The position numbers were made by a program, and so were the translations under genes. Of a stretch of 64,000 nt of DNA, positions 1 to 7,499 are shown one piece after another; positions within the stretch are counted from its first letter, which is position 1; every line of letters starts with the position of its first letter. The notes beneath the pieces are model-generated. The model was not told the origin of the DNA. It made no database searches and saw nothing but the letters and a program-made list of their open reading frames with translations. The DNA comes from Cytophagaceae bacterium ABcell3 (GTDB lineage Bacteria > Bacteroidota > Bacteroidia > Cytophagales > Cytophagaceae): contig CP133159.1 in assembly GCA_030913385.1 (NCBI GenBank), positions 2,998,584-3,062,583 of the forward strand, in the 5' to 3' direction.

Positions 1-57
1 ATATTGTATCAAATAAAACAACAGAAAAGTATTTTTAAACATTAAAATTTTACCATT

Positions 58-222
58 ATGAGAGCATATGCACCTATCAGCGACTACTATGAGTTTCTAG
101 CTAGAATGAAAGAAGAGGCAAAAAGAGAGGCTTTAAGAAATGCAGCTAAAAATGATCAAAAAGAGCATTTTGACTTTAACCATAAAAAGGAGAACAAGAA
201 AGAAGCTGCAATTATTTTTTAG
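58..222 (+). CDS. Small basic/charged protein, paralogue of 1889-2026
   Basis: This 54-residue ORF is not a member of any family I recognise. It starts MRAYAPISDYYEF and continues into a charged helix rich in Lys, Glu and Ala. A second short ORF at 1889-2026 has the same N-terminal pattern (APIS, acidic residue, Tyr, aromatic, EF, hydrophobic, AR), followed by a Gln/Lys-rich tail and a basic end. Both also carry the string AAAACAACA about 42-43 nt before the ATG. Conservation of the N-terminus with conservative swaps (D/E, Y/F, L/V) argues for real coding. A hairpin with a T-run follows at 384-410. There is no signal peptide or membrane segment. Function unknown; the amphipathic N-terminus could bind a protein or membrane partner (inference). 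Confidence 0.7.
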   Translation: MRAYAPISDYYEFLARMKEEAKREALRNAAKNDQKEHFDFNHKKENKKEAAIIF

Positions 223-383
223 GATAGCATTGAATGCAAATGGTTTCTTCAGTTTTTTATCAAATCTAATTTTATGGATGATAGTATAAAACAGTACCGT
301 CTTATAAAACATGTGCGGAGTACGGCAAAGGTAGAAAGGGATGAATGTAGAAGAGTGGGGATAAGGCAATACCATAGCCGTCA

Positions 384-410
384 GGCAGAGAAGTGCTCTG
401 TCAGTTTTTT
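384..410 (+). terminator. Rho-independent terminator
   Basis: A 7-bp stem (GGCAGAG with CTCTGTC, one G-T pair) around a 5-nt loop is followed by six T residues. It lies 162 nt downstream of the small gene ending at 222, so that mRNA would have a long 3' tail, and it isolates the gene from the DUF418 gene at 569. Confidence 0.55.
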
Positions 411-568
411 AGCTGGCAGAGCCATTTGATTTTCCTCCTTACTCCTCCTGAATAACTTTGCCCTTTCTACTTGCTTTTGTTAGGCTTACCCTTTTGTCTT
501 TTTTGTTTTAACCTGTTTAAATAAACAAATTTTTTATTCTGGCTATTATCTTATAAAGATTGTTTTGA

Positions 569-1780
569 ATGACAATACAACAATCAGCAGGTAATGGTAT
601 GAGGCCGCTAGGGGAGAAAAGTCGCATGCATGTCTTGGATGCTCTGCGCGGATTCTCTATTCTAGGGATATTACTTGTTAATTTGTTTTACCTTTCTGGA
701 TATAAATATTTTTCTCCTGAAAGTTTTGGTTCAGCAGAGTTAGACGAAAAAGTCTTGTTTTATGTAAACTTTTTGGCATTAGGCAAATTCTATAGCTTAT
801 TCTCATTTCTTTTTGGTCTTGGCTTTGCTATTCAATTGGACAGGACTAGCCAAAAGGGGCTTCCATTTTTACCATTGTATTTTAGAAGGCTTGGTGTTTT
901 ATTTGTCATAGGTTTGCTCCATACACTTGTATGGCAAGGTGATATTCTCACCGTATACTCGCTGGCAGCTATTCTATTGATTCCGTTCAAAAAAGCTAAC
1001 AACAAAACTATACTTGGTTTTTCTGTTGCACTTTTGATTTCACCAGCTTTTCTCGAGTTAGCCATGAATCAACTGTCCATAAACCCTGGACAGTCTCTTT
1101 ACTCATTAGGCCATCGTATAAAACAATCGTGGGACTTGCCTACATCCTCTACCATAGTTACAGAGGGTGGTCTATATACCTATTTATTGGCCAAAGTTCC
1201 GGATACTTTATTAAGGTATGCAGAGATATTATCAGGAAGCAGGTTCCCTAAATTATGGGGAATGTTTCTTCTGGGGCTTTATTTTGGGCGGAACAACTTG
1301 TTTGCTGATATTAAGAAAAATGCTAAAGTATTTAAATTTCTTTTACTTTTTGGAGGTTTAGGCGGGCTTGTTTTTACTTATTTTTACTTTATGTTTTCTT
1401 GGCCTGCTGGCTCAGAAAATCTGCATTTTTTTAAAACCTTGGCGAGGTCATTGGGAGAGCACCCTTTAGCATTAGGGTATATGGCTGGATTTAGCTTATT
1501 ATATGCCAAGAAACAAGCTGTTTTGGATTGGATGGCTCCTGCTGGGCGAATGGCTTTGACCAATTATTTGATGCAAAGCATAATTAGTGTGCTTTTTTTC
1601 TACAACATAGGACTTGGCTTAGGTCCCGTAGGGCCTGCGTACTACGTTCCTTTTGCCTTTGTGTTTTTTCTTTTTCAGGTTTTGTATAGCCACTGGTGGT
1701 TAAAGTTTTTTAAATATGGCCCAGTAGAATACTTGTGGCGTTCTTGTATTTATGGCAAGCTCCAGCGGTTTAGAAAATAA
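569..1780 (+). CDS. DUF418 domain multipass membrane protein (YeiB family)
   Basis: The 403-residue protein has the family's opening motif (RMHVLDALRGFSILGILLVN, near residues 19-38) and roughly ten hydrophobic segments. The DUF418 signature is in the last 150 residues: GRMALTNYLMQS, then FQVLYSHWWLKFFKYGPVEYLWR. Family members are inner-membrane proteins of unknown biochemical role, related in fold to acyltransferase-3 proteins. ATG at 569 is used; an in-frame ATG at 599 just before the family motif is an alternative start. The gene sits between the two small paralogous proteins at 58 and 1889, all on the same strand, but terminator-like hairpins separate them, so this is neighbourhood rather than an operon. 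The family call is secure, the function is not known. Confidence 0.85.
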   Translation: MTIQQSAGNGMRPLGEKSRMHVLDALRGFSILGILLVNLFYLSGYKYFSPESFGSAELDEKVLFYVNFLALGKFYSLFSFLFGLGFAIQLDRTSQKGLPFLPLYFRRLGVLFVIGLLHTLVWQGDILTVYSLAAILLIPFKKANNKTILGFSVALLISPAFLELAMNQLSINPGQSLYSLGHRIKQSWDLPTSSTIVTEGGLYTYLLAKVPDTLLRYAEILSGSRFPKLWGMFLLGLYFGRNNLFADIKKNAKVFKFLLLFGGLGGLVFTYFYFMFSWPAGSENLHFFKTLARSLGEHPLALGYMAGFSLLYAKKQAVLDWMAPAGRMALTNYLMQSIISVLFFYNIGLGLGPVGPAYYVPFAFVFFLFQVLYSHWWLKFFKYGPVEYLWRSCIYGKLQRFRK

Positions 1781-1888
1781 TGCTTAATAATTTTATAAAA
1801 TAAGTCGTTTTACTGAAACCGTTTATAGGCGTTTTGAGTTAAGATAAAAACAACATATTATAATAACTATTTTAATTCTCATTACCCT

Positions 1889-2026
1889 ATGAAAATTCAT
1901 GCACCAATCAGCGAGTATTTCGAGTTTGTAGCAAGACAAAGACAAAAAGAGCAGCAGGCACAAGTAAATCAGACGCAATCGAATAAATCCTTTGGTCATA
2001 AGAAGTCAGAAAGAAAAGCCGCTTAA
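1889..2026 (+). CDS. Small basic protein, paralogue of 58-222
   Basis: This 45-residue ORF begins MKIHAPISEYFEFVARQRQK and ends in a basic tail (GHKKSERKAA). Its first 16 residues match the protein at 58-222 position by position with conservative changes, and its upstream region shares the AAAACAACA string at the same distance. It is followed 15 nt after the stop by a good terminator (2042-2071), so it is probably a monocistronic transcript. No known domain, signal peptide or membrane helix is visible. The Gln-rich middle section is not conserved in the paralogue, so any function probably lies in the APIS-type N-terminus. Function unknown. Confidence 0.72.
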   Translation: MKIHAPISEYFEFVARQRQKEQQAQVNQTQSNKSFGHKKSERKAA

Positions 2027-2041
2027 AAGCTTTAGTTCATA

Positions 2042-2071
2042 AGTCCGGGCCTAGTCTCGGACTATTTTTTT
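2042..2071 (+). terminator. Rho-independent terminator
   Basis: A perfect 6-bp stem AGTCCG/CGGACT with a 10-nt loop is followed by A and seven T residues. It begins 15 nt after the stop of the 45-residue gene, supporting that gene as a real transcription unit. Confidence 0.75.
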
Positions 2072-2117
2072 GTTCTTTTTAACCTGCATTGTATTTGTCT
2101 AATATGTAAATTTGTAC

Positions 2118-3014
2118 ATGCAGAAATTCTATCCCCTCTTTTTCCTACTTATATTCATGCTTTTCTCTTGCGGTGAAAATGAGACCCAAGAAGTGTCTAG
2201 CTCTATAGAGGTTTTTTCATTAGAGTCTAAAGGAAGCAAAACCATTTATACTTCTGAAAATATTATATCTTCCCCCCAATGGTCTCCTGATGGGAAATAT
2301 ATTTTTTTTAATGAGAATGAAAATATACTTCAAATATCTGTGGAGGATGGATTAGTAGAAACTGTTATTTCGTCTGTGCCATGCAGCCCAAATTACGGCA
2401 TAAGCTCTGATGGTAAAAGTTTGGCGGTGTCGGTATTGGGAAAGCCTGGTGATAATACTCAAATTACTATTTTTTCTTTAGAAGAAGATGGACAATCCCA
2501 AAACTTTACTTTCAACGGAGATGCTTGGTTTCATGGTTGGGATCCAACAGGAAACAGGTTTGTTTTTTGTGGAAAACAAAGTGATAAATTAGATATTTAT
2601 AGCGCCTCCTTACAAGGGGAGTTGGCAAAGTTGACTAATTCTGGTGATTTTTTGAGCAATACGCCTGATTACTCTTTAGATGGAAAGTATATTTATTTTA
2701 GTTCCGATAGAAGCGGAATTGCCGAGGTTTGGAGGATCGATGCAAATGGGGACAACCTTAAGCAAATCACTTCTGATGACTATAATAACTGGTTCCCGCA
2801 CCCGTCTCCTGATGGGAACAATTTACTGTTTCTTTCTTATAACAATGACGTGTACAAACATCCTTCTAATGAAGAAATTCAGGTGCGTTTGATGTCTCTA
2901 TCTGACAAAAAAGCTGAGACTTTGTTCGAGACGATTGGAGGACAGGGGACGTTTAATATGCCTTGCTGGTCTCCAGATAGTAAGTCTTTCGTATATGTAA
3001 ATTATACCCCTTAA
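2118..3014 (+). CDS. TolB/PD40-type beta-propeller lipoprotein
   Basis: The protein (298 residues from the ATG at 2118) has a lipoprotein signal: hydrophobic stretch then FSCGENE, with the lipobox Cys near residue 18. An in-frame TTG two codons upstream is a less likely start. The body contains at least four WD40-like PD40 strands: SPQWSPDGKYIFF, TPDYSLDGKYIYFSSDRSG, FPHPSPDGNNLLFLSY and MPCWSPDSKSFVY. Such repeats form a propeller as in TolB and are common in Bacteroidota envelope proteins, where they act as binding platforms. No catalytic motif is visible. It is followed by a bulged hairpin (3161-3230). The fold is well supported, the partner unknown. Confidence 0.8.
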   Translation: MQKFYPLFFLLIFMLFSCGENETQEVSSSIEVFSLESKGSKTIYTSENIISSPQWSPDGKYIFFNENENILQISVEDGLVETVISSVPCSPNYGISSDGKSLAVSVLGKPGDNTQITIFSLEEDGQSQNFTFNGDAWFHGWDPTGNRFVFCGKQSDKLDIYSASLQGELAKLTNSGDFLSNTPDYSLDGKYIYFSSDRSGIAEVWRIDANGDNLKQITSDDYNNWFPHPSPDGNNLLFLSYNNDVYKHPSNEEIQVRLMSLSDKKAETLFETIGGQGTFNMPCWSPDSKSFVYVNYTP

Positions 3015-3160
3015 AAGGTAAAGTTTCTAAGAATAAAAAGAAAATTATACCATATTCTGCTATCTTTTTAATGGCCTAATCCGTTATATATTATAATACT
3101 AAAGTCTTAAAAGTTCATAAGTCAGTAGGCCTAATGCTTGGGCAACAAACACGTTCTATT

Positions 3161-3230
3161 AATCAGCCATTTCCTAACAATCATAGCTTGATTATGCATA
3201 CAAACTGAAATGTGCTGATTTTTGTTCTTT
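3161..3230 (+). terminator. Long bulged hairpin with T-run (terminator or leader element)
   Basis: AATCAGCCATTTC (3161-3173) pairs with GAAATGTGCTGATT (3207-3220) through 13 bp with one bulged T, and the inner region can form AATCA/TGATT. The right arm runs into TTTTTGTTCTTT. It lies 147 nt after the lipoprotein gene and before the candidate operator of the metal exporter gene. It may end the upstream transcript or be a separate structured leader. Confidence 0.4.
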
Positions 3231-3277
3231 GATAGTTCTTCAAGCAAAGGGATATTGGTCATGCCAACTTTTGGTGT

Positions 3278-3292
3278 CGCAACTTTGTTGCG
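3278..3292. promoter_or_regulatory. Candidate operator, palindrome CGCAACTTTGTTGCG
   Basis: A perfect 6-bp inverted repeat with a 3-nt centre lies 68 nt before the ATG of the metal exporter gene. The segment CAACTTTG inside it differs by one base from the Bacteroidota -7 element TAnnTTTG, so a bound repressor would cover the promoter. A Fur-family regulator is encoded one gene downstream, which makes it the natural candidate ligand. Function is inferred from position only. Confidence 0.4.
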
Positions 3293-3359
3293 TTATGGAA
3301 TTTTTTAGTAGCTTTTGCGTTGTATTAGTACGGGTAAGCAATTAGAACTCAATTATCAG

Positions 3360-4040
3360 ATGAATATAGGTTTAACAACATTAGCAGCATTTTCGCTCGG
3401 TGCCATGCACGCATTAGAGCCAGGCCATGGAAAAACATTTATAACCAGTTACTTGCTCACTGGAAGGAGTAGTAAGATGCAATTATTTATTATGGGATTG
3501 AGCATGGCTTTGTCTCATACCTTGGTATTGTTCTTGTTAGGCTTGATGATCCTTTTCTTTTCATCACAAACAGCAGGCTATATTAGTGATTTCCTACTTA
3601 TTGGATCGCCATCGCTTGTTATTGGTATAGGGCTGTATATGCTGTATCGTTTGTATAAAAAGAAGGTTTCTTGTGGGTGTTCTTCCCATAGCTGTAGCCA
3701 TGGCGGGACTGCCTTGCCTGGGGAAAAAATTAGTTCAAGGACAGCTGCCTTGGTAGGTTTTACAGGAGGTCTGTTGCCGTGTCCCTCTGCTATTGCCGTT
3801 TTTTCTTTGTCAGGCACTACAGGTGACTCCAAAAGCGCCCTTTGTATGATGGGCTTATACGTTGTTGGGTTTATCTTAATTATGGCTGCTTTAATTATAG
3901 GGGCTTCTTTTATTAAAAATAAAGTGGTTTCTAAATATTTCAATGAAAAGAGAAATCTATTGATCCAGAAGATTAGTGCTTATGCCATTATTTTGACAGG
4001 GGTGCTGTATCTTACTCATAATATTGTAGATCATTTATAA
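3360..4040 (+). CDS. NicO/RcnA-type nickel-cobalt (or related metal) exporter
   Basis: This 226-residue polytopic membrane protein carries the family motif HALEPGHGKTFITSYL near residues 17-32 and a second motif GGLLPCPSAIAVF near 137-149. Between them is a short cytoplasmic-type loop with a Cys/His-rich cluster (CGCSSHSCSH, about residues 105-114), typical of metal-selectivity loops in RcnA-like proteins. The ATG at 3360 is chosen because it starts directly before the first membrane helix; the open frame extends to a TTG at 3315 that adds only nonconserved residues. Adjacent Fur-family and CobW genes support a role in transition-metal homeostasis. Nickel, cobalt, zinc or copper cannot be distinguished from sequence; sulfite-exporter-like proteins share part of the fold. 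Confidence 0.78.
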   Translation: MNIGLTTLAAFSLGAMHALEPGHGKTFITSYLLTGRSSKMQLFIMGLSMALSHTLVLFLLGLMILFFSSQTAGYISDFLLIGSPSLVIGIGLYMLYRLYKKKVSCGCSSHSCSHGGTALPGEKISSRTAALVGFTGGLLPCPSAIAVFSLSGTTGDSKSALCMMGLYVVGFILIMAALIIGASFIKNKVVSKYFNEKRNLLIQKISAYAIILTGVLYLTHNIVDHL

Positions 4041-4052
4041 AAAATAGGGTTC

Positions 4053-4085
4053 AGAGGGGTAGGGAAGGGACTTTCTTTCCCCTCT
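4053..4085 (+). terminator. Probable terminator after metal exporter gene
   Basis: AGAGGGG (4053-4059) pairs perfectly with CCCCTCT (4079-4085) around a G/T-rich loop, 12 nt after the stop codon. The trailing sequence is only moderately T-rich (TGGATTATTAT), so termination may be partial and allow read-through into the Fur-family gene at 4133. Confidence 0.45.
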
Positions 4086-4132
4086 TGGATTATTATCCCA
4101 AAGGATCCTTATAACATCTATTACCATATAAT

Positions 4133-4543
4133 ATGCTAAAAGCAGCGGATATATTAAAGAAAAGGAAGCTGAAAGCCACAGCAATACGTACAAAACTTTT
4201 ACAATCCATTATTAGTAGCGAAAAAGCCCTTTCTCATGCAGAGTTGGCTGAGGTTATTGTGCAGAAAGCTGACAGAGTTAGTATTTATAGAAATCTTATC
4301 GTCCTTACCAATGCTGAGCTTATCCACAAAATTGTAGACCAAACTGGAACTGCCAGATATATTTTTAATACACATCAACACGCCAATGAAAAAATCGGCA
4401 GCCACCCCCATTTTAAGTGTACAAACTGTGATATGGTTTACTGTTTGCCCGACTTGCCTAAAGAGTATTTAGCAAGCTTATCTAAGCTACATTTAAAAAA
4501 TGTTACTTTTTTGGCAGAAGGGATGTGTCAAAAATGCTCATAA
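4133..4543 (+). CDS. Fur-family metalloregulator (Zur/Fur-like)
   Basis: The 136-residue protein has the Fur-family layout: an N-terminal winged helix (residues 1-75, with the recognition region ADRVSIYRNLIVL) and a C-terminal dimerisation and metal domain with HPHFKCTNCDMVYCL. Two CxxC pairs are present (Cys96/Cys99 and Cys132/Cys135), the structural zinc site of Fur and Zur proteins. The His-rich HQHAN segment near 81-85 would supply the sensory site. It lies between a metal exporter and a CobW GTPase, a context most like zinc regulation, but iron or peroxide sensing cannot be excluded. Its likely targets include the palindrome at 3278-3292 (inference). Confidence 0.85.
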   Translation: MLKAADILKKRKLKATAIRTKLLQSIISSEKALSHAELAEVIVQKADRVSIYRNLIVLTNAELIHKIVDQTGTARYIFNTHQHANEKIGSHPHFKCTNCDMVYCLPDLPKEYLASLSKLHLKNVTFLAEGMCQKCS

Positions 4544-4621
4544 TTCCTTTTCTACCATTACCTAAGTTGAAAAGTTAGGCTAAGGCCATTTGTTCTTCGA
4601 GTTTTTCAGTAATTTTGCTAT

Positions 4622-4670
4622 AACCTGAAGTTATGTGATAGATTTCCTCATGAGGAGCAGTATATTTCAG
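4622..4670 (+). repeat. Dispersed repeat A, copy 1
   Basis: This segment shares GATAGATTTCC, ATGAGGAGCA and ATATTTCAG in the same order with a second intergenic site at 39107-39176, which has an extra 18-nt insert before the last block. The element is hairpin-like: CTGAA and TTCAG at its ends and, in this copy, the 10-bp palindrome CCTCATGAGG in the middle. It ends 17 nt before the CobW start codon, so it forms most of that gene's leader. Confidence 0.6.
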
Positions 4671-4687
4671 TTTTAATCTTGATTTAC

Positions 4688-5650
4688 ATGCAAAAGCCAG
4701 TAACGATTCTTACCGGGTTCCTTGGAGCGGGTAAGACCACATTCTTAAATAGCATTTTAGCAGAAAGAAAAGGTGTTCGTTTTGCCATCATAGAAAATGA
4801 GTTTGGCGAAGAGAGCATAGATGGAGAGTTGATTCTTCGCTCTGATGATAATTTTGTAGAGATGAACAATGGCTGTCTATGCTGTACCCTCAACGACAAT
4901 TTATATGACATTCTTAACCAGCTTCATGAAAGAAGCGAGCAGTTTGATGAGTTGATAATCGAGTCTACTGGCATTGCTGACCCAGCGGGTATTGCAGCTC
5001 CTTTCTTGACACACCCTGCCATAAAAAAAGCTTTTCCTTTAAAACGCATAGTTTGTCTGGCTGATGCTGTATTGGCTGAAGACAGGCTAAAGGAAACAGA
5101 AGAGGCCAGAAAACAGATGGCTTTTAGTGATATAATTTTGATCAATAAAACAGATTGTATTACAGAGGGGTACCATACTGAACTTGGAGAACTGTTTTCA
5201 AAACTAAACCCCATGGCGAAAATTATGGCCGGAAATAAAAACGGGTATCCTATAAGTGAAATCTTTAATTATGAGCGAGAGGAACATGTTGGTACAGAGA
5301 CTTTCAAGCACCAAGATCATGATCATGGTCACCATCACCACCACCACGGTGACATAAGTGCTTTAACTTTTACTTTTTCAGAACCTTTTGATGTCGATGA
5401 GCTTTATAACCGCTTGTTTGTTTTTTTACAATTTCAATCAAAAGACCTGTATAGGATGAAAGGTGTTGTTGATAACGGAAGCCATACACATCAGGTTGTT
5501 TTTCAATCTGTCGGTAAAAGTCTAAATGTGGAAGAAGGGCATGAATGGAAGGAGGTAGCTAAAAGAAAAAGCCGGATAGTTTTTATCGGCAAGAGTTTAA
5601 AAGCTGAAGGCTATGAGAAAATGCTTAGGCAATGTCTGGTAAAAGGGTAA
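4688..5650 (+). CDS. CobW/ZNG1-type G3E GTPase (metallochaperone)
   Basis: The 320-residue protein has the Walker A motif GFLGAGKTT at residues 10-18, the diagnostic metal-binding CLCC motif in [11 protein letters not shown], the ESTGIADP switch segment and NKTD for guanine recognition. A histidine-rich linker ([12 protein letters not shown]) precedes the C-terminal CobW_C domain. These are hallmarks of COG0523 GTPases that deliver zinc or other metals to client enzymes, often induced by metal starvation under Zur. The ATG at 4688 is used; an upstream in-frame TTG at 4679 adds three residues. With the Fur-family gene just upstream it forms a metal-homeostasis unit. Family is certain; the metal is inferred. 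Confidence 0.9.
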
Positions 5651-6075: not shown

Positions 6076-6312
6076 ATGAACCTACAAGACTTGATTATCA
6101 GTATTGTTGCCAAAATCAATGGGGTGCCTAAAGAGGAAGTCTCTTTATCTCATAAACTAAAAGAGGACCTTGGAATGGACTCTTTAGATTCACTTGAGTT
6201 GATAACCGAAATTGAACAAGAATTTAGTTTATACATTCCTGAAGAAACTGAAATAAACAGTGTAGGTGAAATTGTACAATATGTAGAAAGACATACTTCT
6301 GATAAAAATTGA
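6076..6312 (+). CDS. acpP: Acyl carrier protein
   Basis: The 78-residue acidic protein matches ACP in length and sequence: EDLGMDSLDSLELITEIEQEF contains the DSL motif with Ser36 as the 4'-phosphopantetheine attachment site. It would carry acyl chains in fatty-acid or lipid synthesis. Unlike the usual acpP-fabF arrangement there is no fatty-acid gene beside it; the downstream neighbour is a WD40 gene on the opposite strand. It may therefore be a second, specialised ACP rather than the primary one. The ATG at 6076 is the natural start. A terminator follows at 6316-6361. Confidence 0.88.
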   Translation: MNLQDLIISIVAKINGVPKEEVSLSHKLKEDLGMDSLDSLELITEIEQEFSLYIPEETEINSVGEIVQYVERHTSDKN

Positions 6313-6315
6313 TCT

Positions 6316-6361
6316 ACTTGCTTGATTGTCAATTTTGAAGCTTCATGCAAGTGCTTTTTTT
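6316..6361 (+). terminator. Terminator after ACP gene
   Basis: ACTTGC (6316-6321) pairs with GCAAGT (6347-6352), and the loop contains the palindrome TGAAGCTTCA. The stem is followed by GC and seven T residues. It lies between the convergent ACP and WD40 genes and best fits termination of the ACP transcript. Confidence 0.6.
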
Positions 6362-6373
6362 AGGAACCATTGC

Positions 6374-7384
6374 TTACTGTATAGGTTCTGCCAAAATTAT
6401 CAATTCACCATTGGCCGTTCCTATGGCAACTTCAGAGTCATCCGGTGACCAAGAAATTGCTGTTATTGCACTAGGCATTCTGGCTATATCTATTAGCTCA
6501 TTTTTTATATCCGGCCTCCAAAATAGAATGATTCCTGCCTCATCTCCCGAAACCAATGCTTTCTTTTGGTTTTGAAACTTTAGCGTTGATACAAAGTGTT
6601 TGTGCCCTATTAATATTGAAGGGTCTAGATTTTCTTTGTTAATATTATCCCAAAAAGAAATTTGGTTTGAGCCTGTTGCGGCCAATAGATTTGACTTGTT
6701 TTGCCAATCTAATGCTTTAACATTTCCATCATATCCTGCCATTTCATAGGTTTCTGAAGGAGCATATACCTTAACCCAACCTTTTTCTGTGCCCAATGCT
6801 AAACATGGTTCATGCGGATGCCATCTAATAAAGCTTACTATTCCTTCTACAATTAATTGATCCTTAGTTTTTTCTTCTGTAGGGTCAAATTCTAAAATCG
6901 TATTTTCAAAAGCAACGGTAAAGCAATGCCTATGAGGATTCCAATCTACTGCGGTAATACGATTAGCAGGGTGTTCATAAGCTAACTGCAACAACCCATG
7001 ATGATCCCAAATTTTTAACTCTTGATTTGCAGTGGTGCAAAAACAACTGCCATTTGGATGCCATGTTATAGAAGTCACTTGGTGGGTGTGGGCTTTAAAA
7101 GTTTTTAGCTTTTCACCGGTGTCGGTTTTCCATATTGTCACTTGGCCTTGATGATCTGCGGAAGCAAGAAACAATCCTGAAGGAGCGTGTGCAATAGTGG
7201 CTATTTCTCCCAAGTCTGAGAGTAGGTTAACTTTCGCTTCTTCCGTATTTATGATTCCAATCTGTTGCTTTGTTGCAACACACAGAAAGTTTGTATCATA
7301 AGACCATGACAGGTTTGTAATAGCTGCATTGAACCTCGTACGCCAAAGCTCCCGTTCATTGTCAAATTCTGATGCCTCACTCAT
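6374..7384 (-). CDS. WD40 repeat protein
   Basis: From the ATG at 7384 the protein has 336 residues made almost entirely of WD40 blades. Clear examples include GLFLASADHQGQVTIWKTDTG followed by KTFKAHTHQVTSITWHPNG, and ISFWDNI followed by ILIGHKHFVSTLKFQNQ. About seven repeats fit a single propeller. There is no signal peptide, so it is cytoplasmic and probably a protein-interaction scaffold. The open frame runs to a TTG at 7414, but the ATG gives a better N-terminus. It is convergent with the ACP gene and divergent from the sensor kinase at 7533, 148 bp away. The partner is unknown. Confidence 0.85.
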   Translation of the reverse strand: MSEASEFDNERELWRTRFNAAITNLSWSYDTNFLCVATKQQIGIINTEEAKVNLLSDLGEIATIAHAPSGLFLASADHQGQVTIWKTDTGEKLKTFKAHTHQVTSITWHPNGSCFCTTANQELKIWDHHGLLQLAYEHPANRITAVDWNPHRHCFTVAFENTILEFDPTEEKTKDQLIVEGIVSFIRWHPHEPCLALGTEKGWVKVYAPSETYEMAGYDGNVKALDWQNKSNLLAATGSNQISFWDNINKENLDPSILIGHKHFVSTLKFQNQKKALVSGDEAGIILFWRPDIKNELIDIARMPSAITAISWSPDDSEVAIGTANGELIILAEPIQ

Positions 7385-7499
7385 TGTTTTAATCCGGTTT
7401 AAAAACAACTGCAAATGTAAGCCTTTTGCCCCATTTTAAAATATGAGCAGCCATAAAGAAATTAACATTCATCCTGATATGCGGTTAAATGTAAGTAAT

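Follow-up and report, generated by a model that had tools for sequence, protein, structure and literature searches.

Orphan small proteins are abundant and difficult to separate from noise. The pair described here comes closest to the lineage-restricted bacterial sORF families, whose members, like the two ORFs of this study (sORF1 and sORF2), are short and charged, carry no recognised domain and are absent from the curated libraries that were searched. Two further kinds of system invite comparison. Paralogous RiPP precursors are likewise small paralogous ORFs with conserved N-termini, and a RelB-like/Phd-YefM antitoxin (families PF18506 and PF02604) encoded at one of our comparison loci, L011, shares with sORF1 the pattern P-I-x-D-Y-x3-L and a charged helix.

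The DNA that we analysed (hereafter the window) is a 64,000-nt stretch of the 5.115-Mb genome of Cytophagaceae bacterium ABcell3 (CP133159.1), at the start of which sORF1, a DUF418 gene, sORF2 and a TolB-like propeller gene stand in that order (Table 1). The coordinates of the two small ORFs and their lengths of 54 and 45 codons, as given in an earlier note on this DNA, were confirmed, and so was the N-terminal motif, APIS-[DE]-Y-[YF]-E-F-[LV]-A-R, that it had described as common to both. Each ORF would encode a hydrophilic (GRAVY -1.15 for sORF1 and -1.32 for sORF2) and basic protein. Further along the window, genes for a NicO-type metal transporter, a Fur-family regulator and a CobW-type GTPase are consecutive at 3315-5650 and probably constitute a metal-homeostasis cluster. 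At 6076-6312 lies the gene of an acyl carrier protein, the second and divergent one of this genome, the other one (4438503) reaching only 43% over its first 54 residues; a WD40-repeat propeller protein, encoded on the minus strand at 6377-7414, adjoins it. The upstream neighbours include a cytochrome P450 and a CAAX-type protease, both generic.

Table 1. Positions of the two small ORFs, their neighbouring genes and the associated signals in the window
Feature	Position	Strand	Description
AAAACAACA	15-23	+	first base 43 nt before the sORF1 ATG; significance weak
sORF1	58-222	+	54 aa, pI 9.0; N-terminal block MRAYAPISDYYEFLAR, K/E/R-rich middle, C-terminal block FNHKKENKKEA
Two overlapping hairpins after sORF1	384-422	+	384-402, then AGTTTTTT; 395-422 resembles the final hairpin of the group II introns in this genome; possible terminator
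DUF418-family membrane protein gene	569-1780	+	between sORF1 and sORF2; PF04235 E 2.9e-39
AAAACAACA	1847-1855	+	first base 42 nt before the sORF2 ATG; significance weak
sORF2	1889-2026	+	45 aa, pI 10.1; N-terminal block MKIHAPISEYFEFVAR, Q/N-rich middle, C-terminal block FGHKKSERKAA
Intrinsic terminator-like hairpin	2042-2063	+	8 pairs, then T-run; after sORF2
TolB-like propeller gene	2112-3014		3' of sORF2

Full-length alignment of the two proteins gave 42% identity, and BLASTP 38% over 50 columns. When the whole genome was searched in six frames, sORF2 was the sole other match to the sORF1 query at E<=10 (E 7.6e-5, 26.1 bits), and the sORF2 query in turn retrieved sORF1 (E 2.0e-4). The Smith-Waterman score of the pair, 90, was reached by none of 20,000 shuffles of sORF2, whose maximum was 57; among 251 other ATG ORFs of 30-90 aa, drawn from the window and from locus L012 (18 kb), the highest score was 29. 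The tails alone scored 44, a value that 37 of 20,000 shuffles equalled. The two tails had been said to differ; this holds for the middles, which have diverged in composition and by five residues in length, but not for a second block near the C-terminus, F-x-H-K-K-x3-K-x-A, which is common to both proteins and had gone unnoticed. By these sequence comparisons, the likeness between sORF1 and sORF2 is beyond chance, and it is significant in the coding frame, as a paralogous pair requires. Together with the sign of protein-level selection described below, the reciprocal matches and the shuffles bear out the proposal of a paralogous small-protein pair flanking the DUF418 gene. A profile built from the two sequences retrieved no meaningful third copy from the same genome, the next match (E 0.318) lying in a 603-codon frame.

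We then looked for relatives in progressively wider sets of genomes, which overlap. These searches revealed that (i) none of the 18 other Cytophagaceae genomes matched sORF2 at E<=0.1, so that, as far as such searches can tell, the pair is not part of a genus- or family-wide conserved small-protein family, (ii) the sORF1 query gave weak matches in 9 of 97 other relatives at E<=1, two of them within the family (E 0.368 and 0.556), (iii) in the order sample, 10 of 389 other genomes matched the two-sequence profile at E<=0.05, against about 19 expected by chance, (iv) in the phylum sample, 1 of 394 others matched at E<=0.01, inside a 930-codon frame and judged by the length of that frame alone, and (v) in the class sample none of 394 others matched at E<=0.005. 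Translation of the weak matches from the genome itself, the 97 relatives and the order sample showed no small ORF starting with the motif. Across 84,980 species genomes, 181 stretches matched one of two eight-residue patterns and no relative was confirmed, in a scan that is blind to relatives changed within both patterns. Plasmids yielded no match to either peptide, and phages none to sORF1, the only query used there.

Two candidates from these searches were set aside. The sole viral match, on viral contig L024 (48% in the best segment, residues 6-38), is one short stretch within a 1545-aa phage protein and was attributed to chance. The nearest look-alike of the motif outside the genome, at L022:1501-1551 on the minus strand, carries HADISDYFVFQARLKE in a frame of 53 codons that has no Met before it; its E value was 0.0318 in its own genome, one of the 389 others in the order sample, and 0.00059 in a small set of fetched loci, and it was taken, not firmly, as a chance match.

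Gene neighbourhood was no more revealing. In 97 loci around relatives of the DUF418-like and TolB-like proteins, which are only 28-42% identical to those of the window, searched together with L055 (1.24 Mb in all), the best match was L055 itself (E 0.049), and the flanks of these relatives held no look-alike of either sORF. The length-matched control, a query of the N-terminal 54 residues of the acyl carrier protein encoded at 6076, gave matches at E<=1e-3 in 55 of 58 other genomes, many of them at only 40-43% identity. A relative that differed from the pair no more than sORF1 differs from sORF2 would therefore probably have shown, with the proviso that the genomes searched include no other member of the genus and that a fast-evolving protein of 50 residues could escape such searches. 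Homologues carrying the motif in related genomes, which the earlier note had named as its check, thus did not appear in convincing form in the family, order, phylum and class samples or in the scan of 84,980 genomes. Of its small-protein family, the paralogous pair in one genome is supported and the wider family, for which these searches gave no convincing relative, is not.

Since the searches made yielded no orthologue, selection is measurable only between the two copies. Over codons 1-16, the BLOSUM62 sum is 60 in the coding frame and 24-33 in the other frames (two forward, one of them at two offsets, and three reverse). Against an equal number of random base changes, the protein likeness of this segment has P ~0.002 and that of the nine C-terminal codons P 0.0001-0.0002, values that flatter the coding case because the segments were picked for their likeness. 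When identities alone are counted, codons 1-16 do not reach significance (P 0.09-0.12). The changes, described in the earlier note as only conservative in the N-termini, are mostly so. A direct-repeat search (seed 9) found no DNA repeat joining the two ORFs, which are therefore more alike as protein than as DNA. A diverged pair within one genome serves as an internal coding test without sister genomes, and here the test speaks for two proteins that are under constraint. Judged from sequence, sORF1 and sORF2 are very probably genuine, lineage-restricted paralogous small-protein genes.

The most serious competitor of a selected function is that the two are young paralogous copies with little or none, an orphan having arisen or arrived in this lineage, been duplicated nearby and been left to drift. 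The restriction of the pair to a single genome among those searched and its strongly different middles would fit such a history, and the copy of a group II intron hairpin alongside, described below, may point to insertions at this place. The changes in both conserved blocks are nevertheless more conservative than random, and both frames are still open in spite of a divergence as far as 42% identity, at which free drift has usually broken a frame; we consider drifting copies somewhat unlikely.

Codon usage bears on the possibility that the ORFs are non-coding, that is, a repeated DNA or RNA element (leader plus repeat) left open by accident. We scored codon usage after training on 34 long ORFs of the window and ranked 81 ATG ORFs of 40-60 codons. 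sORF1 came first (14.8 bits in total, 0.278 per codon, synonymous component +3.11), while sORF2 was weakly positive in eighth place (2.5 bits), its synonymous component alone being -2.68; 5 of 65 ORFs that are probably spurious, because they overlap long ORFs, scored as high as sORF2. This weak score and the 9-mer common to the two leaders are what a non-coding element would have in its favour. Its absence as a direct DNA repeat between the ORFs (seed 9), the frame-specific nature of the similarity and the failure of the flanks to align all speak against it, and we regard it as very unlikely.

The 9-mer in question, AAAACAACA, was confirmed to lie 42-43 nt before both ATGs, as had been noted, and its four other occurrences in the window seem, from their 200-nt contexts, not to be so placed before a gene. 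Among 5000 shuffled pairs, 40 had a 9-mer in common at offsets differing by no more than 1 nt. Beyond this element, the leaders showed no significant likeness over 150 nt (543 of 1000 dinucleotide shuffles as good) or over 60 nt (178 of 1000), the downstream flanks did not align (789 of 1000 shuffles as good), and a search for a Bacteroidota promoter before either gene, using a -33/-7 consensus, gave nothing above shuffles. The conserved regulation that had been proposed is weak: it comes down to one 9-mer in the leaders, which, like the downstream flanks, are otherwise not alike.

Hairpin terminators had been ascribed to both genes. Of the two, only sORF2 is closely followed by a terminator-like hairpin, with a T-run; sORF1 has none near its stop codon. 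The first terminator-like hairpin after sORF1 (384-402) begins 162 nt past the stop, and the one overlapping it, at 395-422, copies a group II intron hairpin; the two could serve as a terminator for sORF1. Terminator-like sites are fairly common here, with 10 in the first 6 kb against 4.6 expected, and shuffled versions of 2010-2085 gave an equally good fold in 56 of 200 cases, so the hairpin region of sORF2 does not stand out in folding. Between the DUF418 gene and sORF2 (plus strand, 1781-1888) no terminator-like site was found, so that the two may be co-transcribed, with sORF2 coming last on the transcript.

Five places between 775 and 811 kb of the same genome carry a hairpin that is almost identical, over 28-30 nt, to the one at 395-422. 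Three of these five pass the Rfam threshold for group II introns (RF00029), and the matched stretch, which lies at intron 3' ends, covers the hairpin. The hairpin of the window is also similar to L031 (2.78 Mb), a place without a recognised intron (comparison loci L026-L031). It may be what is left of an intron 3' end, or a hairpin that has been taken over as a terminator. At one of these loci (L030:1455-1815) an RF00029 3' end (to 1539) is followed about 105 nt on by the start of RF02001 domains I-IV (from 1645), so that the introns there are in tandem. In the window, complementary arms GGTAGAAAGGG (330-340) and CCCTTTCTAC (461-470) enclose the hairpins at 384-422, and the whole stretch 223-568 has a somewhat better fold than its shuffles (z -1.85), of which 4 in 100 did as well. 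Rfam, run over the 18-kb surroundings, gave one match only, far below threshold.

The earlier impression that the pair belongs to no named family was borne out in Pfam, NCBIfam, PHROGs and PADLOC. The best Pfam matches were chance ones under the cut-off (ANAPC_CDC26, E 0.024, and Polyoma_coat2, E 0.26), those in PHROGs had E 1.2 or worse, NCBIfam and PADLOC returned no match and the PDB nothing significant. Four sequence variants of the motif were absent from the papers searched, and none of the titles and abstract openings that general searches brought up concerned the pair.

AlphaFold2, given the two sequences as input, predicted a single helix for each protein (residues 7-52 of sORF1 and 9-36 of sORF2) with low confidence (mean pLDDT 66.7 and 69.1; pTM 0.28 and 0.34), and a lone helix is expected from such a composition regardless. 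The best-scored residues, 11-20, start in the conserved segment (block mean pLDDT 80 and 86), and the hydrophobic moment over residues 9-19 is 0.52 in sORF1 and 0.35 in sORF2.

As an explanation of the whole, we favour, tentatively and at somewhat less than even confidence, a genuine paralogous pair acting as alternative adaptors. Each sORF would give rise to a soluble, basic, mostly helical protein without a membrane segment. The common N-terminal segment, APIS plus the amphipathic aromatic turn [DE]Y[YF]EF[LV]AR, would dock on one shared partner; the middle would form a free spacer helix whose charge has diverged, being K/E/R-rich in sORF1 and Q/N-rich in sORF2; and the common basic end, FxHKKxxxK, would make a second contact, for which nucleic acid or the ribosome may be the target. 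sORF1 would be transcribed alone, and sORF2 would probably come last on the DUF418 transcript, the end of which would be set by the hairpin at 2042-2063, so that one adaptor would exist in two alternative versions, each made under its own conditions. Taken alone, this adaptor mechanism is unlikely; its docking step, its second contact and its transcript structure are all inferred. If the docking idea is true, the two proteins would amount to a compact adaptor that comes with either of two diverged spacers. Carried further, and decidedly improbable as it then becomes, the same idea would define a new family: a two-ended adaptor joining its N-terminal and basic C-terminal motifs through a free helix, the paralogues of which swap spacer charge and expression context and so bring the same partner into two settings, of which one is linked to the DUF418 membrane protein.

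An altogether different role would be that of an antitoxin-like protein (RelB or Phd/YefM type) or an anti-phage accessory, the N-terminal segment being the remnant of an antitoxin helix. The sORFs are indeed small, basic and helical, and one weak match to sORF1 (E 0.969) is the RelB-like/Phd-YefM antitoxin of L011 (1453-1656), which aligns with sORF1 residues 1-38 at 34% and itself matches PF18506 at E 4.4e-8 and, under the cut-off, PF02604 at E 2.5e-6, with only weak NCBIfam matches. An E value of 0.969 is nevertheless at chance level, sORF2 yields no alignment with L011, and PF18506 matches neither sORF (Pfam scan, E<=1; search of the genome with the model, E<=10); there was also no PADLOC and no significant PHROGs match, and no toxin-like partner gene was recognised beside either sORF. 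Because sORF2 does not align with L011 and PF18506 was negative, the antitoxin idea is kept as a minor rival only, and a very unlikely one. Also very unlikely are RiPP-type precursors with a conserved N-terminal leader and a variable core, which two small paralogues with a conserved N-terminus and a diverged middle would resemble, but from which the pair differs in that its C-terminal block is likewise conserved, it has no GG-type leader cleavage site, and a scan of 15 neighbours (5 larger genes at 569-5650, 8 ORFs at 4149-12450 of L012 and 2 at 6076-7414 of the window) showed neither a peptide-modifying enzyme nor a dedicated transporter that could be recognised.

Overall, sORF1 and sORF2 are best placed beside the lineage-restricted sORF families, as one more small-protein pair of this kind, a find that is real but modest. 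What sets them apart from such families is that here two diverged paralogues permit protein conservation to be tested within a single genome.
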